A stretch of DNA of 41,365 nt, taken from NCBI GenBank assembly GCA_902799985.1, contig CADCCR010000024.1, positions 1 to 41,365 on the forward strand. Reading direction: 5' to 3'. Shown here piece after piece: positions 7,636-36,172 of the stretch; position 1 is the stretch's first letter, and each line of letters opens with the position of its first letter. Source of the stretch: an uncultured Bacteroidales bacterium. Its GTDB lineage: Bacteria; Bacteroidota; Bacteroidia; Bacteroidales; Bacteroidaceae. Under the pieces are notes generated by a model. The model did no database searches. It was not told where the DNA came from and saw only the letters and a program-made list of their open reading frames with translations. A program made the position numbers and the translations under genes.

Positions 7636-7680
7636 CGTATTTTCATAGATATAATGCACACATACACGGGGAAAATTACA

Positions 7681-7834
7681 AACTATGCGTGTGAAGTGAG
7701 TAAACTAAGCGTGGATAGTGGGCAAACTTCACGTGGATAGTTCGCAATAAGCACGAGGCGCTTCTGAAATAAGCACGAGGCGCTTCCGAAATAAGCACGA
7801 GGCGCTTCCGAAATAAGCACGAGGCGCTTCCGAA
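7681..7834. repeat. 22-bp-period array, seven units, overrunning the rhamnosidase 3' end
   Basis: Seven contiguous 22-bp units start at 7681, 7703, 7725, 7747, 7769, 7791 and 7813. The last four are nearly identical (core ataagcacgaggcgcttc); the first three are diverged (cores such as aactaagcgtggatagt) but keep the exact period. No spacers separate them. Read on the minus strand they encode a 22-residue repeat (RKRLVLISEAPRAYF...), because 22 is not a multiple of 3 and three units restore the frame. This forms the tail of the rhamnosidase frame. Confidence 0.85.
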
Positions 7835-9620
7835 AGCGACCCCTCTCCGTCTCCCCCGAGGGGGAGTGAATGTCGCCGCAAAGGAAGCCTCCCCTCGGGT
7901 TATGCGAACGGCCACCCTGCTGAGGCAGATATACTTTGGCCTTCATGCTGGAGGGCAGGCTCACCGACATACGGCCGTCGGCCAGGCGGACCGTGACGGG
8001 ACCCTTTGGCGTCGGCACCTGGCACGCTGCTTCGCCGAGGCTGCCGGGCTGCGGACGGATTTCCACCACATCGAAGCCGGGAGCCAGCGGACGCACACCC
8101 ATCAGGCGGAAGGGGATAATGTTGGCAGGTGCAGCACCCCAGGCATGGTTCCAGTCCTGATTGGGTTTCCAACGGTTGCCCCAAGCCTCCATCGTGATGG
8201 TGGAACCCTCTCGGAGCATGTTTGCCCAGCTGCGGTCGCTCTGGCTGGTCAGCAGGGCAAGGGCCGCATCGGGCTGATTCAGGTCGTAGAGTGCATCGAG
8301 CAGGAACTGAGCGCCATAGACGCTGCAAGCCATGCCGCGCGACACGATGTGACGGGCCACGGACTGGCGGTACTGCTCGGGCACGAGGTGGAACACCGCG
8401 GCGAACATATTGGCATGCAGCGAAGCATGATTTGTGCCCATTCCATCGACATAAATGCCCCTCTCGGCATCGAGGAAGGCACGGTTGAAAGTGTCGCGGA
8501 ACCGACGGGCGTAGGCCGCAAGCTCCTTTGCCTCTGCCTTCCTGCCAATAGCCGCGAACATCTGCGCCAGACGACTCACGGCAGCATAGTGATAGGCATT
8601 GACCACGGTATTGAAGTCGGTGTAGACATAGCCATCGTCCTCGCCGCCTTGTCCCTCGGCAAGGCCCAGCGTGCCCGAATGCGGCCAGTCGACGATGTCG
8701 CGGAGCGGCTCGCCCCGATGGATGGAGCCGAGCACCTCGCGGGTCTGTCCGCGGCGTGTCGTGATGAGTCCCGTTGTGCTGTCGCGCAGAGCCATCAGCG
8801 TGTGGGCCCGCAAGTCGTCGGCATATTGCGAGATGAGCTGCGTGTCGCCCGTGTAGAGATAGTCGTACCAGGCTATCAGCACCATCTGCAGACTCCATTC
8901 GGTAGGCCAGGTGGGATGGTCGATGAGGTAGGCGAAGGTACGTCGCGCCACGTCGTAGCGGCTGTCCGTAGCATAGTGGCAGAGCTGGTTTATCAGGGCG
9001 TCGGCCTCGTACGGGGTGCGTTCGCGGTCGCCATCCACATGGAAGCCCGAGAAGGAGGTGGCTTTGATGCTGTAGCGGCAAAGCTCCCACACAGCATTGA
9101 GCACGCTGTCGCTCGAAAGGAAGCTGGCCGCTTCGTCGTCGAACGGCACGTTCACGGCTATCCGGACCACATCGTTCGTCGTCAAGCCTCCCCTGCGACC
9201 TTCCACCTCAACATAGCGGAATGGCATCACCTCCCCCACGTCGTCCGGCATGCGGATGGCTGTTCCGCTGGTGTTGCGTCCGTCCTTCGGGATGTCGGGA
9301 CGATAGGTGTGTGTGCCTTCGCGCAGCGGCACGACGACCATCCGATAGCGTTTGGAGCCGCCCGGAGCCCTGTCCACACGGCCGTCGCGGACGCATTCGC
9401 CCAAGTGAAGTCGGAGCGTGTCGCCTGCCGAGAGCGCTCTTGCCGTTATCTCAATCTGTCCGAAGGCTGCCCGGCCGAAGTCGGCCATGACGTTGCCATC
9501 GGGCAGCACGACAAGTCTGCTGGCAGGCTGGCGCGTCTGTTCCAGCACGACGGGCGACATCTGTGCCCGTGCGCTTCGGGCTACCAGCGCGATGAGAAGA
9601 AGTAGAATCCACCTGTTCAT
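7683..9620 (-). CDS. GH78-like alpha-L-rhamnosidase, secreted, with array-derived C-terminal tail
   Basis: 645 residues with an N-terminal signal peptide (MNRWILLLLIALVARSARAQ). A beta-sandwich region (to ~160) is followed by an (alpha/alpha)6 catalytic region. The motif GDRERTPYEADALINQ (~residue 198) corresponds to the GH78 segment carrying the general acid; EWSLQM, NHASLHANMF and WNHAWGAAPANII are further family-like landmarks. Role: release of alpha-L-rhamnose from pectic or other glycans. The start overlaps the stop of the patatin frame (ATGA), so the two are co-transcribed. After about residue 575 the frame runs through a palindromic element (7851-7866) and into the 22-bp array, so the last ~60 residues are not family sequence. 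The original stop was probably lost or displaced. Confidence 0.82.
   Translation of the reverse strand: MNRWILLLLIALVARSARAQMSPVVLEQTRQPASRLVVLPDGNVMADFGRAAFGQIEITARALSAGDTLRLHLGECVRDGRVDRAPGGSKRYRMVVVPLREGTHTYRPDIPKDGRNTSGTAIRMPDDVGEVMPFRYVEVEGRRGGLTTNDVVRIAVNVPFDDEAASFLSSDSVLNAVWELCRYSIKATSFSGFHVDGDRERTPYEADALINQLCHYATDSRYDVARRTFAYLIDHPTWPTEWSLQMVLIAWYDYLYTGDTQLISQYADDLRAHTLMALRDSTTGLITTRRGQTREVLGSIHRGEPLRDIVDWPHSGTLGLAEGQGGEDDGYVYTDFNTVVNAYHYAAVSRLAQMFAAIGRKAEAKELAAYARRFRDTFNRAFLDAERGIYVDGMGTNHASLHANMFAAVFHLVPEQYRQSVARHIVSRGMACSVYGAQFLLDALYDLNQPDAALALLTSQSDRSWANMLREGSTITMEAWGNRWKPNQDWNHAWGAAPANIIPFRLMGVRPLAPGFDVVEIRPQPGSLGEAACQVPTPKGPVTVRLADGRMSVSLPSSMKAKVYLPQQGGRSHNPRGGFLCGDIHSPSGETERGRFRKRLVLISEAPRAYFGSASCLFQKRLVLIANYPREVCPLSTLSLLTSHA
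7851..7866. repeat. GC-rich palindrome, dispersed-element copy A
   Basis: CTCCCCC-GA-GGGGGAG forms a 7-bp stem, flanked by a cccctctccgt tract. Similar palindromes with a neighbouring ggggtc/gagggtc motif occur at 10641-10718, 12160-12250 and 38393-38412, all inside coding frames. Confidence 0.55.
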
Positions 9621-10448: not shown

Positions 10449-12518
10449 ATGAAGAACTTTAACGAATTAGGGCTTGCCGAACCTTTGTTGCAAGCCATTG
10501 AAGAACTGGGATACGAGCACCCGATGCCCGTGCAGGAAGAAGTGATTCCGCACCTGCTGAACAATGACACTGACCTTGTAGCCTTGGCACAGACAGGCAC
10601 AGGCAAAACCGCTGCTTATGGCCTGCCGCTGCTGCAAAGGACCCTCTCTAACTCTCCCTTAAAGGGCGAGGACTCGGGAAATGACACCCTCCCTTTAAGG
10701 GAGGGCCGGGGTGGGTCTGCCCTCATCCTCAGTCCTACACGCGAACTCTGCCTGCAGATAGCGGACGACCTGGAAGGTTTCAGTAAGTATCTGCCCGAAG
10801 TGAACATCCTGGCCGTCTATGGCGGCACGAACATCGAGCCGCAGATACGTGCCCTCAAGCACGGAGCCGACATCATCGTGGCTACGCCAGGCCGACTGAT
10901 GGACTTGATGAAGCGCGGCGTGGCCGACCTCTCCAAGGTGCAATACGTTGTGCTCGACGAGGCTGACGAGATGCTTTCGATGGGCTTCCAAGAGGACCTC
11001 GACAGCATCCTCGCAGGCATCCCCAGCGAGCACCGCACGCTCCTCTTCAGCGCCACGATGAGCAAGGAGATTGAGCGCATAGCACAAAACTACCTGACCG
11101 ATGCCACACAGATACAGGTGGGCAGCCGAAACGAAGGGGCCGAGAACGTGAACCATATTTATTATATGGTACACGCGCGCGACAAGTACCTTGCCCTCAA
11201 ACGCGTCGTCGACTTCTACCCGCGCATCTATGCCATCATCTTCTGCCGCACACGATTGGAAACGCAGGAGGTGGCGGACAACCTTATCCGCGACGGCTAC
11301 AATGCAGACGCACTCCATGGCGACCTCTCGCAGCAGCAGCGCGACCTGACGATGCAGCGCTTCCGCCGCCATCGCATTCAGCTCCTCGTGGCAACGGACG
11401 TGGCAGCTCGCGGACTGGACGTCGATGACCTGACGCACGTCATCAACTACGGTATGCCGGACGACGTGGAATACTACACGCACCGCTCCGGCCGTACGGG
11501 TCGCGCCGGCAAGAAGGGCACGAGCATCTGCATCATCGGCATGCGCGAACGCAGCAAGATAAAGCAGATAGAAAAGGAGATACAGAAGACCTTCGAGCAA
11601 GGCACGCTGCCCGAGCCTCGCGACATCTGCACCAAACAGCTCTACCATGTCATCGACGAGATAGAGCGTGTGGTGGTGGACGAAGAAGAGATTGCTCCCT
11701 TTATGGACGAGGTGCAGAAGCGCTGGGCATGGCTCGACAAGGACGACCTCATTCGCCGCGTCCTCTCGCGCGAGTTCGGTCGATTCCTCCAGTACTACGC
11801 CAATGCGCCCGAGATAGAGAACCCCAAGGAACAAGGGACAGGAAGCAAGGGACAAGGAGCACGGGGCAAAGGACGTCAGGCTGAGGAAGGCTACGTCCGC
11901 CTCTTCCTGAATGTCGGCAAGATAGACGGCATGTATGCCCGCGAGATTATCGGCATGCTCAACAAGAATGTGCAGGGCGACAAGGTGGCCGTCGGTCGCA
12001 TCGACCTGATGAAGAGCTTCTCGTTCATCGAAGTGAAGCAGGACGACCTCAGCCGCGTCATGAAGGGACTGAAGCACGGCGTGACGGTCAAAGGTCGCAG
12101 CGTGGTCTGCGACGTGGCAGCCCCCTCCCCCAGCCCATCCTCCGAGGAGAAAGACCTTCCCCGACCCTCCCTTAAAGAGAGGGAGAAAAAAGCCACGCCT
12201 CGTCCGCTAAGAAAGTCCTCCCCCTCTAAGGGGGACTCAGAGAGGGTCCGCCCTTCCCGCGAGGAACGTGGCTACACAGAGCCTCGCGGCAAGGAGACAT
12301 TCCCGACTTCAGCGAAGAAGGCTGGGCAAGAAGAAAACCAAAAAAGAAAAAGTAACAACAAACGGAAGAATCAGAGTACTCAGAGTATTCGGAATCTTCA
12401 GAGTTCTCAGAGCATTCAGAGTACTCAGAGCATTCAGAGTACTCAGAGCATTCGGAATCTTCAGAGTACTCAGAGCATTCAGGACAATCATATTAATCGG
12501 AATAATCAGAGAAGCTAA
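10449..12518 (+). CDS. DEAD-box RNA helicase with DbpA-type RNA-binding domain and inserted repeats
   Basis: 689 residues. Helicase motifs in order: Q-motif region (PMPVQEEVIP), AQTGTGKT (47-54), PTREL (~96), TPGRL, DEAD (170-173), SAT (~201), ARGLDV and HRSGRTGRAG (~345). A DbpA-like RNA-binding domain spans about 478-556 (GYVRLFLNVGKIDG). It probably remodels RNA in ribosome assembly or cold adaptation. Odd features are four in-frame repeats: residues 65-90 between motif I and Ia (palindromic element), ~461-476 (7-bp purine array), ~571-604 (palindromes) and 639-688 (9-bp array giving S-I/T-Q triplets). The core motifs remain intact, so the enzyme may still work. The stop overlaps the start of the peptidase gene by one base (TAATG). 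Confidence 0.9.
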   Translation: MKNFNELGLAEPLLQAIEELGYEHPMPVQEEVIPHLLNNDTDLVALAQTGTGKTAAYGLPLLQRTLSNSPLKGEDSGNDTLPLREGRGGSALILSPTRELCLQIADDLEGFSKYLPEVNILAVYGGTNIEPQIRALKHGADIIVATPGRLMDLMKRGVADLSKVQYVVLDEADEMLSMGFQEDLDSILAGIPSEHRTLLFSATMSKEIERIAQNYLTDATQIQVGSRNEGAENVNHIYYMVHARDKYLALKRVVDFYPRIYAIIFCRTRLETQEVADNLIRDGYNADALHGDLSQQQRDLTMQRFRRHRIQLLVATDVAARGLDVDDLTHVINYGMPDDVEYYTHRSGRTGRAGKKGTSICIIGMRERSKIKQIEKEIQKTFEQGTLPEPRDICTKQLYHVIDEIERVVVDEEEIAPFMDEVQKRWAWLDKDDLIRRVLSREFGRFLQYYANAPEIENPKEQGTGSKGQGARGKGRQAEEGYVRLFLNVGKIDGMYAREIIGMLNKNVQGDKVAVGRIDLMKSFSFIEVKQDDLSRVMKGLKHGVTVKGRSVVCDVAAPSPSPSSEEKDLPRPSLKEREKKATPRPLRKSSPSKGDSERVRPSREERGYTEPRGKETFPTSAKKAGQEENQKRKSNNKRKNQSTQSIRNLQSSQSIQSTQSIQSTQSIRNLQSTQSIQDNHINRNNQRS
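10641..10718. repeat. Palindromic dispersed element inserted in frame in the helicase core (copy B)
   Basis: Near-perfect palindrome CCCTCCC-TTTAA-GGGAGGG at 10687-10705, preceded by a related imperfect one (ctcccttaaagggcgag) and followed by ccggggtgggtc. Encodes residues 65-90 of the helicase, where relatives usually have a short loop leading directly into the ALILSPTREL segment. Confidence 0.65.
11828..11875. repeat. 7-bp-period purine array in frame in the helicase
   Basis: Seven contiguous 7-bp units (ggaacaa, gggacag, gaagcaa, gggacaa, ggagcac, ggggcaa, aggacgt) encode EQGTGSKGQGARGKG in the linker before the RNA-binding domain. A related array lies in the transglutaminase-like gene at 38416-38508. 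Confidence 0.75.
12160..12250. repeat. Two palindromic elements in frame in the helicase tail (copies C1, C2)
   Basis: CTCCCTTAAAGAGAGGGAG at 12167-12185 and a GTCC...CCCCCTCTAAGGGGGAC hairpin at 12215-12236, with a following agagggtc motif. Same type as copies A, B and D; here they fall in the disordered tail. Confidence 0.55.
12365..12508. repeat. 9-bp-period array encoding the helicase C-terminus
   Basis: About sixteen contiguous 9-bp units (cagagtact, cagagcatt, cggaatctt and variants). Since 9 is a multiple of 3 the protein shows a three-residue period, S-I-Q / S-T-Q / N-L-Q. The helicase stop lies 8 bp further on. Confidence 0.8.
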
Positions 12519-14893: not shown

Positions 14894-16448
14894 ATGGCAA
14901 CATTAGACTTGACAAAGTATGGCATCACCGGCAGCACCGTGATTGCCCACAACCCTTCCTATGAGTTCCTCTTCGAAGAGGAGACAAAGGCTGGACTCAC
15001 CGGCTTCGACAAAGGCCAGAACACCGAGCTCGATGCAGTGAACGTAATGACTGGTATCTACACCGGCCGCAGCCCCAAGGACAAGTACATCGTGATGGAC
15101 CAGAAGTCAAAGGACACCGTTTGGTGGACCTCCGAGGAGTACAAGAACGATAACCATCCCATGAGCGAAGAGGTTTGGGCAAAGGTTAAGGCCATCGCCG
15201 TGAAGGAACTCTGCAACAAGAACCTGTACGTGGTCGACGCATTCTGCGGTGCCAACGAAGGCACACGTCTGCGTGTCCGCTTCATCGTGGAGGTAGCTTG
15301 GCAGGCACACTTCGTAAAGAACATGTTCATCCAGCCCACAGCAGAAGAGCTGGAGAAGTTCGAGCCTAACTTCGTCATCTACAACGCCAGCAAGGCTAAG
15401 GTGGAGAACTACAAGGAACTCGGCCTCAACAGCGAGACTTGCGTTGCCTTCAACGTAACAAGCCGCGAACAGTGCATCATCAACACATGGTACGGCGGCG
15501 AGATGAAGAAGGGTATGTTCTCCATGCAGAACTACTACCTGCCCCTCGACGGCATCGGGCCTCTCCGGCACAGGTAAGACAACCCTCTCTACCGACCCGA
15601 AGCGTCTCCTCATCGGCGACGACGAGCACGGATGGGACGACGAGGGCGTCTTCAACCTCGAAGGCGGCTGCTACGCCAAGGTCATCAACCTCAGCAAGGA
15701 GAACGAGCCCGACATCTACGGCGCCATCAAGCGCAACGCCCTCCTCGAGAACGTAACCGTTGATGCTAACGGCAAGATTGACTTCGCCGACAAGAGCGTC
15801 ACCGAGAACACACGCGTCAGCTACCCCATCGAGCACATCGAGAAGATTGCCAAGAAGGTGAACGGCAAGAGCGCAGGTCCCGACGCCAAGAACGTCATCT
15901 TCCTCAGCGCCGACGCATTCGGTGTACTGCCTCCCGTCAGCATCCTCACTCCCGAGCAGACGAAGTACTACTTCCTCTCTGGCTTCACAGCTAAGCTTGC
16001 AGGCACAGAGCGCGGCATCACAGAGCCCACTCCCACCTTCTCTGCTTGCTTCGGCCAGGCATTCCTCGAGCTGCATCCCACAAAGTACGCTGAGGAACTC
16101 GTGAAGAAGATGGAGAAGAGCGGTGCTAAGGCTTACCTCGTCAACACAGGTTGGAACGGCACAGGCAAGCGCATCTCAATTCCCGACACACGCGGCATCA
16201 TCGACGCTATCCTCGACGGCAGCATCCTGAAGGCTCCCACAAAGAAGATTCCTTTCTTCGACTTCGAAGTGCCCACAGCTCTGCCCAACGTCAATCCCGC
16301 CATCCTTGACCCCCGCGACACATACGCCGAGGCAAGCATTTGGGAAGAGAAGGCAAAGGATCTCGCTGCCCGCTTCATCAAGAACTTCAAGAAGTACGAA
16401 GGCAACGAAGCCGGCAAGGCTCTCGTCGCTGCAGGTCCGAAGCTGTAA
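14894..16448 (+). pseudogene. pckA: ATP-dependent phosphoenolpyruvate carboxykinase, frameshifted by an internal deletion
   Basis: The enzyme interconverts oxaloacetate plus ATP and phosphoenolpyruvate plus CO2. Here the frame from 14894 ([10 protein letters not shown]) is family-like up to LPLDGI at 15556, then shifts and stops at 15577. The remainder, from [16 protein letters not shown] (15558 onwards, one frame over) to AGPKL at 16448, is also fully family-like; an in-frame ATG for it occurs only at 15858. Relatives have about 19 residues between GI and GLSGTGKT (form ASMHCSAN...VAVFF); here a single base is left, so about 56 nt are missing. That segment carries the His metal ligand of the MHCSAN motif, so frame repair alone would not restore activity. 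It is either a real pseudogene or an assembly error. The P-loop and DDEHGWDD metal/nucleotide motif are retained in the second half. Confidence 0.9.
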
Positions 16449-16508
16449 AGCAACTGGGCCTACAGCAACGAACATCCTTGCTCGTCGCTGCAGGTCCGAA
16501 GCTGTAAA
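16422..16508 (+). repeat. 28-bp direct repeat of the pckA 3' end
   Basis: The last coding bases and stop of pckA (16422-16449, beginning ctcgtcgctgcaggtccgaa) recur exactly at 16481-16508, 59 bp apart, in the 3' untranslated region. Confidence 0.85.
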
Positions 16509-16527
16509 TCTATATTTACATACAAAA

Positions 16528-16561
16528 AGAAAAGGGGCAACCACATGGTTGTCCCTTTTCT
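16528..16561 (+). terminator. pckA terminator
   Basis: Arms AGAAAAGGGGCAACC and GGTTGTCCCTTTTCT pair over 15 bp (one G-T) around acat and run into ttt. Confidence 0.85.
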
Positions 16562-16610
16562 TTATATCAGCTCTGACCAGAGCGAAACCTCATCACAATC
16601 TACTGAAAAC

Positions 16611-17006
16611 CTGGAGATTATTTCCATCGCGCCATGGAAACAAAACCATACATCAACAGAGAGATAATCCAACCGCAACGAAGAGTAATTCATACTGCAA
16701 CGAAGACTAATTCATACCGCCACGGATAAAAACTTTTTCAGTGGCACGGAAATATATTTCAAAGGCTTGGAAATATATTTCAGAGGCTTTAAAATATATT
16801 TCCAAGCCTTTGAAATAGTTTTGTTGCAGAGAGAAAGGAAATTCTATACAGGGAGGAAGAATATTCTGTACAGGAAGGAAGGATATTCTGTGCAGGGAGA
16901 AAGGGACTTCATCACCTACAGAAAGGGATTTCATCGCCTACAGAAAGACACTTCTTTGCCTACAGATGAGCATTCTACCCTTCTGCATCACGAGTTCCCA
17001 TCAAGG
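16611..17006. repeat. Long degenerate 22-bp-period array (about 18 units)
   Basis: The non-coding stretch after the pckA terminator divides without gaps into 22-bp units starting at 16611, 16633, 16655 and so on to 16985. Adjacent units resemble each other most: two with aacgaagagtaattcatac, three with ggaaatatatttc, three with ggaaga/tattctgtacagg, three with gaaaggga-ttcatc. A purine block in the first half and TTC in the second half recur throughout. The units from 16721 to 16830 closely resemble those at 32543-32652. There are no spacers, and open frames across it are by-products. Apart from this array and two hairpins nothing else is seen in 16449-17164. Confidence 0.8.
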
Positions 17007-17046
17007 TCGTTCTGCAGGGAAGCGGCTGTGGTTCAGGGAAGAAGAA

Positions 17047-17070
17047 AGGGGCAACCTCACGGCTGCCCCT
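17047..17070 (-). terminator. Hairpin terminator downstream of the sigma-partner gene
   Basis: AGGGGCA-a-CC and GG-c-TGCCCCT pair around tcac. On the minus strand it is followed by tttcttc, about 95 bp after the stop at 17165. The plus-strand side also has a T-rich flank. Confidence 0.6.
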
Positions 17071-17164
17071 ATCTTTCGTTAGTTTTTTGTTTTGAGAGAA
17101 AAAGTGCTTCACAGCACCAAAATGATTGTTTTATTAAGCAATTATTGTTTTATAGTATGAATGA

Positions 17165-17701
17165 TTACCTTGCAAGAGCGTTGAGCGAATCCGAGGTATG
17201 CGAGCTGAGGGCTGCGGACTGTTGCTCCGGATTGCTAACGATGATGTGCTGGAGGCTGTCGGCATTGACGGTTTCTGCCACCTGCGGGGCGGGTGCTTCA
17301 TCCTCCTGCGTAAAGCTCTTCTGGGCTGCATTGCCGATGCTGAGGAGCAATGCCACGAGGCCTGCGACGCGATAGAAGGGACGCAGGCGGCGCATGAAGG
17401 TCAGGCGGCGAGCCTTACAGACGTAGCCTCCTTCCAGCCTTATCCCGTCGGGAGCGGATGCCTCGCCTTCCGGCTGGGCCTGGCCCGACTGACGAACCAG
17501 CTGCAGCATCCAGTCTGTGAAGTCCTTGCCAAGATGCTCGTTTGCCATCGCGTCCTCCTCGATGAAGAGTTGACGATAGGGAAGCAGGCTGGCCGGCACG
17601 TCCTCCTGACGGAAGAAAGTGCGGAGGATAGCCTCTTCCTCGAGTGTCGTCTGGCACTCCCAATAGCGTTCCAACAGTTGTTCTATGTACTTATAGTCCA
17701 T
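17165..17701 (-). CDS. Membrane-anchored partner of the ECF sigma factor (putative anti-sigma factor)
   Basis: 178 residues. The N-terminal ~70 residues are acidic and helical (MDYKYIEQLLERYWECQTTL), followed by a linker, a basic stretch (RRLTFMRRLRPFYR) and one likely membrane helix (about 111-127, VAGLVALLLSIGNAA), with a short polar C-terminal part beyond it. This one-helix layout directly downstream of an ECF sigma gene is typical of Bacteroidetes sigma/anti-sigma pairs. I did not see a recognisable zinc-binding anti-sigma motif, so the role is inferred from position and topology. The 96-bp gap to the sigma gene is filled by an inverted pair of 7-bp arrays. Confidence 0.65.
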   Translation of the reverse strand: MDYKYIEQLLERYWECQTTLEEEAILRTFFRQEDVPASLLPYRQLFIEEDAMANEHLGKDFTDWMLQLVRQSGQAQPEGEASAPDGIRLEGGYVCKARRLTFMRRLRPFYRVAGLVALLLSIGNAAQKSFTQEDEAPAPQVAETVNADSLQHIIVSNPEQQSAALSSHTSDSLNALAR

Positions 17702-17711
17702 TGTCTTAGTT

Positions 17712-17834
17712 AATTAAGAATTAAGAGATAAGATTTAAGAATCTGCTACCGTTCGAAGTTCTCTGACCTTTAATCCTTATTCTTTAGTCTCTATTCTCTA
17801 ATCTTTAATCTTCAATCCCTCTTTAATCTTCGTT
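17712..17834. repeat. Inverted pair of 7-bp-period arrays between sigma factor and partner genes
   Basis: Left: aattaag, aattaag, agataag, atttaag (17712-17739). Right, roughly complementary: ctttaat, ccttatt, ctttagt, ctctatt, ctctaat, ctttaat, cttcaat (17768-17816), with more after a 4-bp slip (17821-17834). The right array supplies the stop codon and last residues (GLKIKD) of the sigma factor. Confidence 0.75.
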
Positions 17835-20517: not shown

Positions 20518-20520
20518 TCA

Positions 20521-20617
20521 ATTCATAATTCATAATTCATAATTGAAGGCTGCGCCTCGGGACGTTATCCGAAGCGAAACCCAGCAACCATGAATTATGA
20601 ATTCTTAATTATGAATT
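20521..20617. repeat. Inverted pair of 7-bp-period arrays between frr and rsgA
   Basis: attcata x3 (20521-20541) faces atgaatt, atgaatt, cttaatt, atgaatt (20590-20617) across a ~48-nt GC-richer spacer. The arms can pair in the frr-rsgA transcript. Confidence 0.8.
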
Positions 20618-26562: not shown

Positions 26563-26658
26563 TTATCACGAGATAACGTTATCTCGTTATCTCGATATCT
26601 CGATATGACGTTATTTCGTTATGACGTTATCTCGTTATGACGACATTTCGTTATTCCG
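26563..26658. repeat. 8-bp-period array (ttatctcg), 12 units
   Basis: Exactly phased 8-bp units: ttatcacg, agataacg, ttatctcg, ttatctcg, atatctcg, atatgacg, ttatttcg, ttatgacg, ttatctcg, ttatgacg, acatttcg, ttattccg. The array ends one base before the stop of the Dabb gene. A second array with the same unit is at 27784-27903. Confidence 0.85.
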
Positions 26659-27783: not shown

Positions 27784-27903
27784 TTATCTCGTTATGACGT
27801 TATGACGTTATTTCGTTATGACGTTATTTCGTTCTGTCGTTATTCCGAAATATCGTTATTTCGATATTTCGACATTCCGTTCTGACGGCATTTCGTTCTG
27901 ACG
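27784..27903. repeat. 8-bp-period array, 15 units, overrunning the ResB-like gene
   Basis: Phased units ttatctcg, ttatgacg, ttatgacg, ttatttcg, ttatgacg, ttatttcg, ttctgtcg, ttattccg, aaatatcg and further to ttctgacg. Positions 27856-27903 encode the last residues and stop of the ResB-like protein (NEMPSERNVEISK). Confidence 0.85.
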
Positions 27904-32476: not shown

Positions 32477-32696
32477 TTCAATTAATTGTTTCGTCTGGTT
32501 CACAGTAAAATTCACCGGCGATGGGAACTAAATCTCTGGCGGCAGGGAACAAAACTTTTTCAGTGGCTTGGAAATATATTTCCGAAGCTCTGAAATATAT
32601 TTCCAAGCCTTTGAAATAAATTTCCAAGGCTTTGAAAAAGTTTTATCGCGAGCCGCAGGGGAAAATACTCTCTACGGGAAAGAATTTGTGTTTTCA
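32477..32696. repeat. Degenerate 22-bp-period array, ten units
   Basis: Contiguous 22-bp units at 32477, 32499, 32521, 32543, 32565, 32587, 32609, 32631, 32653 and 32675. The units at 32543-32652 (aaaactttttcagt, then ggcttggaaatatatttcc and neighbours) are close relatives of 16721-16830. An open frame starting MEIYF crosses the array and is not a gene. No gene is seen in 32158-32943. Confidence 0.78.
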
Positions 32697-32856
32697 TGTT
32701 TACATCGAAAGACCCGAAATAACCGGTTTGTCCGAGACTTTGCTATAGAATGGGGTTCAACTCGGCTTCACTTCCTCAGCAGAGTCTGGTTTTGCGTTGA
32801 TAAGGTAATTGCAACCCACAAACAAGCTTGATGCAATGAAAATAATCGCTGCAAAG

Positions 32857-35214: not shown

Positions 35215-35969
35215 AGTACGTCAGTTGGAACGTCAACGGCCTGCGGGCCGTGGTGAGCAAGAACTTCAGCGAGGCCTTCGCCGCGCTCGATGCCGACTTT
35301 GTGTGCCTGCAGGAGACGAAGTTGCAGGCCGGACAGCTCGACCTGAGCTTCCCGGGCTACCAGGCCTATTGGAACTATGCCGAGAAGAAAGGCTACTCGG
35401 GCACCGCTGTCTTCACGCGGCAGACGCCCGTGGCTGTGACCTACGGCATGGGCATCGCGGAGCACGACACCGAGGGACGCATCATCACGCTGGAGATGGC
35501 GGACCACTATCTGGTGTGCGTCTACACGCCGAACAGCCAGGACGGACTGCGCCGACTGGACTACCGCATGCAGTGGGAGGACGACTTCCGCGCGTATCTC
35601 CTCGCGTTGGACAGGCAGAAACCCGTCATCGTGTGCGGCGACATGAACGTGGCACACCAGGAGATTGACCTGAAGAATCCGAAGACGAACCACATGAATG
35701 CGGGCTTCACCGACGAGGAACGCGAGAAGATGACCACGTTGCTGGGCAGCGGCTTCGTGGACACGTTCCGCCACCTGCACCCCGATGCCCGAGACCGCTA
35801 CAGCTGGTGGAGCTACCGCTTCCATGCCCGCGAGAAGAACGTGGGCTGGCGCATCGACTACTTCCTCGTATCGGAACGCCTGGCCCCAAGCATCCAGGCG
35901 GCCGACATTCACGACGACATCATGGGCAGCGACCACTGTCCCGTGTCGCTTCTTTTAAGTGAAAAGTGA
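35211..35969 (+). CDS. xth: Exodeoxyribonuclease III (AP endonuclease)
   Basis: 252 residues of the exonuclease-endonuclease-phosphatase fold: SWNVNGLRA, CLQETKLQ (metal Glu), YTPNSQDGL, VCGDMNVAH (catalytic Asp/Asn), WWSYRFHAREKNVGWRIDYFL and the final GSDHCPVSL with the catalytic His. It acts at abasic sites and 3' ends in base-excision repair. The start overlaps the GH3 stop, so the two are co-transcribed. The last codons (SEK) and stop lie in a 7-bp array (aagtgaa), so the original C-terminus may have been slightly altered. Confidence 0.94.
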   Translation: MKYVSWNVNGLRAVVSKNFSEAFAALDADFVCLQETKLQAGQLDLSFPGYQAYWNYAEKKGYSGTAVFTRQTPVAVTYGMGIAEHDTEGRIITLEMADHYLVCVYTPNSQDGLRRLDYRMQWEDDFRAYLLALDRQKPVIVCGDMNVAHQEIDLKNPKTNHMNAGFTDEEREKMTTLLGSGFVDTFRHLHPDARDRYSWWSYRFHAREKNVGWRIDYFLVSERLAPSIQAADIHDDIMGSDHCPVSLLLSEK

Positions 35970-36172
35970 AAAGTGAAAAGTGAAAAATAATAATTAGATA
36001 GAGGGAGATAGAGGAAGATAGAGGAGATGAGGAGATAGAGGAAGTTAGAAGAAGATAGAGGAAGTTAGAAGAAGATAGAAGAAGATAGAAGAAGATAGAA
36101 GACAATACATTGAAACCGCGCCTTGTTTCTACAAGAAATGATTAAATGGTAAATGATTAAATAGTAAATGTG
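35957..36172. repeat. Three successive short-period arrays between xth and the flippase gene
   Basis: 7-bp aagtgaa x4 (35957-35984, carrying the xth stop); 10-bp agatagagga/agatagaaga/agttagaaga, ten units (35996-36102, one 7-bp slip at 36026); and a 7/8-bp atgattaa/atagtaa array (36137-36172) ending next to the flippase ATG. Confidence 0.8.

Follow-up and report, generated by a model that had tools for sequence, protein, structure and literature searches.

REP and BIME elements favour the 3' ends of genes, and classical plasmid iterons are direct repeats with a 22-bp pitch, or two helical turns. The nearest described analogue of the element considered here comes from Porphyromonas gingivalis. 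BrickBuilt is described as a dispersed MITE with 19 intergenic copies, made of spacer-free 23-nt tandem units, and at conserved loci its arrays lengthen and shorten from strain to strain (PMC4596501). It has a single array, flanked by a leader and a tail that bear 12-bp outer terminal inverted repeats, the unit being recognisable across copies (PMC4596501).

The present element likewise belongs to Bacteroidales and resembles BrickBuilt in being dispersed and intergenic and in having spacer-free tandem units of similar length that change in number at conserved loci. It differs in having a fixed-length central dyad core (pitch 21) and two inverted arms (pitch 22) with no recognised outer inverted repeats, and in a unit sequence that varies by locus and species while the pitch stays constant. 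REP and BIME elements are also short extragenic palindromic units in clusters (PMC3733652, PMC2817692); here, however, the units are head-to-tail, with a fixed 22-bp pitch and free sequence, and a Y1 transposase was not found in 7/12 array-bearing congeners. Two-turn direct repeats are shared with plasmid iterons, but the repeats here are dispersed over the chromosome, and Rep3_N occurs in part of the array-bearing genomes. CRISPR arrays are equally regular; here the period equals the unit length (lags 22, 44, 66) and unique spacers are absent, so a CRISPR is rejected, as the original prediction had it. That prediction also held that no element of this kind has been described. Literature searches (Prevotella 22-bp tandem repeats, dispersed repeats, REP/RAYT in Bacteroidetes, minisatellites, two-turn tandem palindromes, Bacteroidales MITEs) returned no title describing the element or a genus-wide 22-bp pitch, with most subscription journals and preprints lying outside their coverage; BrickBuilt is nevertheless a near analogue. 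What is new is a variant of the dispersed intergenic repeat, and the surprise is a genus-wide fixed 22-bp pitch without sequence conservation.

The window is the whole 41,365-nt stretch of DNA that was analysed, and the array occupies positions 16611-17006. Identity at lag 22 across the array is 0.540, against 0.262 in 1000 dinucleotide-preserving shuffles (sd 0.023, maximum 0.326; z 11.9), and among lags 5-89 the next ranks are taken by lags 44 and 66. Chance periodicity is therefore rejected, and the autocorrelation that had been proposed as a check bears out a constant period of about two helical turns with drifting sequence. The period had been described as a gap-free 22 bp throughout. This is correct for the two arms, where TRF reports period-22 arrays at 16646-16724, 16827-16904 and 16898-16966, but not for the central block at 16748-16817, which has a 21-bp pitch; the stretch thus consists of 22-bp arms around a 21-bp core. 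Its parts are as follows.

16611-16729, no strand assigned: left arm, about five 22-bp units, each with an AATTC block and a GC-richer block; its outer edge is not sharp, and it is placed by lag 22, by the first TRF array and by a core-relative register common to other copies.
16730-16822, plus strand: core, 93 bp, with modified terminal dyads AAACTTTTTCA and GAAATAGTTTT enclosing three internal dyads that repeat every 21 bp.
16749-16760, no strand assigned: internal dyad 1, GAAATATATTTC, part of the pattern by which copies were selected.
16770-16781, no strand assigned: internal dyad 2, GAAATATATTTC, outside the selecting pattern.
16791-16802, no strand assigned: internal dyad 3, AAAATATATTTC, outside the selecting pattern.
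16823-17006, no strand assigned: right arm, some eight units of 22 bp that run opposite to those of the left arm, for example GAAAGGGATTTCATCGCCTACA; placed by the other two TRF arrays and by a two-sided arm consensus.

The stretch had been read as a solitary array with no fixed unit, and this did not hold. It is a single copy of an intergenic element that is dispersed and bilaterally symmetric, with a core between mutually inverted 22-bp arms, and the well-conserved 93-bp core recurs at no fewer than 40 distinct places in its own genome (G000; 3.05 Mb in 215 contigs, 79% complete), where L041 and L010, near-identical contig ends that are probably one locus, are counted once. Blastn of the stretch against this genome, in which 40 of the 62 first-look candidates went on to scoring, gave 83 matches, nearly all on one ~100-bp stretch. 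The unit pattern GGAAATATATTTCNNAGGCTT (at most 3 mismatches) matched it 131 + 125 = 256 times, whereas the reversed-pattern control gave 0. A further 39 loci were fetched. A second copy lies in the window itself.

32552-32644, plus strand: second core copy, 93 bp, with short arms (~32490-32700), placed by the core listing, the sequence and TRF.

Run over named genome contigs, an exact core pattern found 62 stretches. Two MAGs, Bacteroidaceae bacterium RGIG4863 (G179, roe deer rumen) and Prevotellaceae bacterium UBA4336 (G053), account for 61 of them, and the remaining one comes from a Prevotella MAG of reindeer. A pattern search over the own genome and these relatives yielded 105 copies, of which 4 run off the end of their sequence (L041, L096, L097, L113) and 101 are complete. 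Core length is 93 bp in 101/101 complete copies, by pattern in 93 and, by eye, in 8 whose diverged right end falls at the identical place. Copies that can be placed between two called genes all fall in gaps; the element is dispersed, intergenic and multicopy.

In all 93 distinct copies the three internal GAAATATATTTC dyads (at most 2 mismatches) keep their fixed offsets on the 21-bp pitch, and the spacers between the dyads are drawn from a small set of words. Arms of 22-bp units flank the core on both sides in opposite orientations. Their lag-22 identity drops outward from ~0.5 to background over ~200 bp, with lags 21 and 23 remaining at 0.24-0.36. When arms are followed outward over lags 17-27, 352/416 accepted steps are at lag 22, compared with 2/29 in shuffled arms. 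The arms fade without a common end, the top information per position declining from ~1.5 to 0.3 bit across six left units.

Neighbouring units had been noted as the most similar, and this agrees with left-arm neighbours within a locus, which share 0.43-0.52 identity against 0.28-0.45 across loci (93 distinct copies); no unit is common to the copies. The further view that the units are too diverged for a satellite is half right, since elsewhere the arms consist of tandem copies that are still fairly fresh, such as the ~11 similar right-hand units of L040. The arms behave as a minisatellite undergoing turnover.

Copy number in the core family is very uneven. The window's own core was matched in 6/101 relatives. 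A variant of the AAAACTATTTTCA type (AAAACTATTTTCAN5TGAAAATNNATTTTCA, at most 2 mismatches) was found in 14/139 genomes of the genus, with 144+138 matches in G013, 38+34 in G115, 12+9 in G146 and fewer in the other 11; the reversed control gave 0, and the own genome and G053, which carry the other variant, also score 0. A search of the family gave 2 matching genomes out of 301, one of them from another genus. Chains of five dyads at 21 bp, with other spacer words, make up 37/42 dyad chains at loci of G013, G115 and G146. Distant blastn of the array stretch found no match in 72,556 plasmid records or 50,697 phage records, and an exact core pattern gave 0 matches in viral_contigs; a phage or plasmid origin is not supported by these sets.

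The dyads could act in DNA or in RNA. The window core folds into a ~30-bp stem (-40.6 kcal/mol, z -8.3), and the whole stretch also folds better than shuffles (z -5.4). The right arm by itself does not (z -1.5). Selection for a long hairpin should leave the spacers beside the central dyad complementary to each other; instead, they are less complementary than shuffled pairings in three species (z -4.0, -4.6, -3.7, tests that are not independent because these species have some orthologous loci in common), and direct similarity of the spacers does not account for this in the three species. In five-dyad chains the corresponding values are z -4.0 in G013 (n=21), -2.0 in G115 (n=7) and -1.7 in G146 (n=8), with 0/36 perfect. 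Matching between left and right arms is no closer within an element than between elements (z 0.4, -0.7 and -0.3 for units 2-4). A conserved long hairpin is thus rejected, although the window core folds well, for central complementarity is avoided and the arms are not mutually complementary. These results point to the dyads as separate short sites in duplex DNA, a perfect central palindrome being disfavoured. Long palindromes are unstable in DNA, which is perhaps the reason. Other spacer pairs deviate as well: complementarity between own-genome spacers 2 and 4 exceeds that of shuffled pairings (z 2.6). Together with the long stem of the window core, this leaves a looped hairpin some probability, a point against the reading favoured below.

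Hairpins in 3' untranslated RNA that terminate transcription or protect mRNA ends, as REP elements do, would account for the strong folding of the core and of the whole stretch and for the preference for convergent gaps described below. We regard such an RNA-level element as improbable, however: terminator-like hairpins already flank the window array, the right arm by itself shows no folding beyond that of shuffles, the two arms of an element lack mutual complementarity, and the spacer pairs that would perfect the stem are under-represented. The window has 0 Rfam matches at gathering threshold; 13 sub-threshold matches in 16500-17100 are mostly microRNA-type hairpins on the core.

The explanation we favour, tentatively and while stopping somewhat short of belief, is that the element offers phased dyad sites to a putative oligomerising DNA-binding protein and is renewed by unequal exchange. 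Every unit would be a dyad site on one face of the DNA, 22 bp being about two helical turns. The core would be a high-affinity nucleation site, and the arms weaker sites along which the putative dyad-binding protein, perhaps of nucleoid-associated or insulator type, would spread as it oligomerises. Between convergent genes, such a filament would part transcription units that otherwise collide, or act as a buffer for supercoiling. Pitch and dyads would be held by selection, the letters being replaced through local tandem duplication and unequal exchange. In favour of this reading are the constant 93-bp core and the five-dyad chains of other species, the 22-bp register of the arms within elements and across orthologous sites, the prevalence of period 22 in the genus with unrelated units, the palindromic units of congeners, the spacer and arm comparisons that indicate short separate dyads, and the preference for convergent gaps.

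The position of the arrays relative to genes bears on this proposal in two ways. In gaps of at least 80 bp from two genus samples, with genes called by a codon-usage caller made for this analysis, arrays of period 22 or a multiple are carried by 18/42 convergent, 37/221 codirectional and 6/52 divergent gaps (convergent versus rest, Fisher p 0.0002). For the core family, 26/92 placed copies lie in convergent gaps, against 15/122 gaps of at least 100 bp without a core (p 0.005). Counting against the favoured reading, the majority of arrays (44/74) adjoin codirectional genes.

The window array itself sits between pckA (plus strand, ending at 16448) and a convergent gene at 17165-17701 (minus strand), with a hairpin on either side.

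16523-16565, plus strand: hairpin followed by T-rich DNA directly after pckA, seen by eye; the terminator scan lists the inner stem only, at 16538-16551 on the minus strand.
17047-17070, minus strand: terminator-like hairpin of the convergent gene, from the terminator scan, which reports two minus-strand hairpins before that gene.

Among 30 loci fetched for the site below pckA, 16 could be read by a C-terminus motif. Clear 22-bp arrays follow the gene at the own site and in G032 and G022, and weaker lag-22 windows are found in G005, G012 and G024; the other ten do not have lag 22 among their four best lags. Occupancy of this site in some congeners only is a further point against the favoured reading. 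The pckA gene is read as two ORFs, 14894-15577 and 15858-16448, within 14894-16448, an apparent frameshift that is either an assembly error or real. By eye, its 3' end (CTCGTCGCTGCAGGTCCGAAGCTGTAA) is duplicated just past the stop codon (16419-16508), and some congeners have several such copies.

Comparison of orthologous sites separates the behaviour of the core from that of the arms. With both flanking genes required to be orthologous, 30 pairs comprising 45 elements were obtained from three species. Their cores align without gaps in 30/30 pairs, with a mean identity of 0.91 and a minimum of 0.77. Out of 360 comparisons of arm units, 162 were scorable (at least 55% identity), and 153 of these align best at shift 0. 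At orthologous sites the core thus persists, whereas the arms exchange, gain and lose units without leaving the 22-bp register: against the ~11 right-hand units of L040 there are 7 of another sequence in L099 and 4-5 of a third in L078. Gapped alignment counts 903 mismatches and 104 gaps in arms and 57 and 13 in flanks, a comparison that is not clean, gaps being over-used at low identity.

Sites can also be empty. At 3/3 own sites examined (the window site, the second window site and L020, the latter two picked because no ortholog had turned up) the core is absent from the corresponding G053 site, again counting against the favoured reading. The window site holds other sequence, apparently genes, in both G053 and G179, and G179 keeps an apparent right-arm remnant. 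The G053 site of L020 is without the element, its flanks being too diverged for any duplication to be read. Below pckA in G053 (L331, ~1140-1710), two small ORFs apparently replace the element, by eye possibly a toxin-antitoxin pair.

These empty sites lend weight to the main rival, in which the element is MITE-like, contains a minisatellite as BrickBuilt does, and is selfish or neutral. Its core would spread by a borrowed transposase, its arms would lengthen and shorten through slippage or unequal exchange, and copies at intergenic 3'-end sites would merely be tolerated. Doubtful as we find it, this rival is to be taken seriously: the copy number of both core variants is very uneven, as given above, and the turnover of the arms is minisatellite-like. 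It is opposed by the 30 orthologous site pairs common to species, by the avoidance of central palindromy and by the unrelated families of the genus that have the same 22-bp pitch, which a single MITE lineage leaves unexplained. Outer terminal inverted repeats and target duplications were not recognised either, although arms that fade gradually make this no clean test. The strongest objections to phased dyad sites are of this kind: unequal exchange alone keeps a period, and the copy number is very uneven, as in a selfish element.

The 22-bp pitch reaches well beyond the core family. DNA was sampled at arbitrary places, on contigs often known from other searches and, for the own genome, partly placed to avoid known copies. 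In the own sample (the window and 20 stretches, 420,634 bases) there are 32 period-22 arrays, five in the window and three of those within the window element, compared with 1, 14 and 1 arrays of periods 20, 21 and 23. Twenty congeners (400,000 bases) have 27 period-22 arrays against 0, 3 and 3 for the same neighbouring periods, and 13/20 of their stretches have at least one. Sister genera of the same family (30 stretches from 24 genera, 498,067 bases, three stretches of 2.2-2.9 kb being omitted) have 4 period-22 and 19 period-21 arrays, and 19 stretches of other families (332,224 bases) have 0 of period 22. The scan of relatives that had been proposed with the original prediction was thus positive, and what was observed there is real and extends further than first described. 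Within the range of 15 to 40 bp, both genus samples have more arrays of period 22 than of any other, and their intergenic autocorrelation has its maxima at 22, then 44 and 66. Period 7 is the most frequent of all in the own sample, with 38 arrays in 421 kb, whereas in congeners its 18 arrays in 400 kb are fewer than those of period 22.

The unit sequences of these arrays vary from species to species, for example ATTGCTTCATCGCGATGAAGCA in G013, GGTTAACCATTATTGGCAAAAT in G024 and GCACCGTGGTGCGACGACCGTC in G025. The window contains arrays of a second sequence family.

7679-7835, no strand assigned: 22-bp arrays, AAACTAAGCGTGGATAGTGGGC-like and then four units of AATAAGCACGAGGCGCTTCYGA, in a single register (TRF and sequence).

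Units resembling AATAAGCACGAGGCGCTTCYGA are also present in other own-genome arrays. A minus-strand ORF (7683-9620) crosses these arrays over 7683-7835, so its C-terminus would be repeat-encoded. The window element is one family among several in the genus that have only the 22-bp pitch in common. Because the many arrays of relatives keep the 22-base spacing with unrelated letters, the spacing is suggested to matter more than the sequence.

The same diversity limits the favoured reading, since one sequence-specific protein cannot bind all arrays when units differ so much between species. Self-complementarity of the units also differs between the samples. Congener units are self-complementary above shuffles (0.675 versus 0.521, n=21, z 9.5), whereas own-genome period-22 units on average are not (0.504 versus 0.502, n=31, z 0.2), which counts against phased dyad sites. 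Imperfect palindromy, claimed at the outset for many units, is found in core dyads and in congeners but not in the own-genome units as a set. A bolder reading gives the genus a sequence-independent ruler: some protein or DNA-processing system would impose or require a two-turn 22-bp pitch on intergenic arrays whose letters can change freely. The many arrays of each genome would then be generic bacterial 'satellites', platforms that organise the chromosome or insulate convergent genes. We consider such a ruler unlikely, if not greatly so.

Two further readings invoke a known partner protein. The first takes the arrays for chromosomal iterons: direct repeats of 22 bp, relics or decoys, to which a Rep protein of plasmid type would bind. 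Besides the pitch, which is the same as that of classical iterons, this draws on Rep3_N (PF01051) being present in 7/37 congeners against 1/24 genomes of other families, and in 5/12 array-bearing congeners. Overall, however, PF01051 occurs in 8/61 genomes, with none in the 79% complete own genome and none in the remaining 7/12 array-bearing congeners, and the plasmid records held no match to the stretch; we find iterons very improbable. In the second, a Y1 (RAYT) transposase would have dispersed the arrays as REP elements, which scattered short units, often palindromic in congeners and biased to 3' ends, might indicate; the own genome has 2 weak Y1_Tnp (PF01797) matches over cut-off. Against it, PF01797 has no match in 7/12 searched congeners with a period-22 array (G005, G008, G012, G015, G016, G024 and G025, 72-92% complete), and among the readings given here we credit this one least. 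Neither the RAYT/REP nor the iteron/Rep partner is supported, each domain having no match in 7/12 array-bearing congeners, though Rep3_N is somewhat more frequent in congeners.

One period across unrelated sequences is unexpected in a bacterial genus and recalls eukaryotic satellite DNA, in which length is kept and letters are not. The fixed 22 bp offers a direct route to a protein or process that measures 22 bp, and the elements provide many natural replicate loci for the study of tandem-repeat turnover and of the gaps that separate convergent genes. Should no protein take part, they are a clean case of period-preserving repeat turnover.

Tandem repeats of other periods also occur in the window. 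AT-rich 7-bp arrays lie at 17712-17742, 17768-17817, 20520-20544 and 35957-35986. Arrays of 8/16/32 bp of the CGTTATTTCGTTATGA type lie at 26564-26654 and 27784-27903, and periods 8, 16 and 32 are found elsewhere in the own sample. A 9/45-bp repeat at 12359-12511 codes for the Gln/Ser-rich tail of ORF 10449-12518, by eye a DEAD-box helicase.
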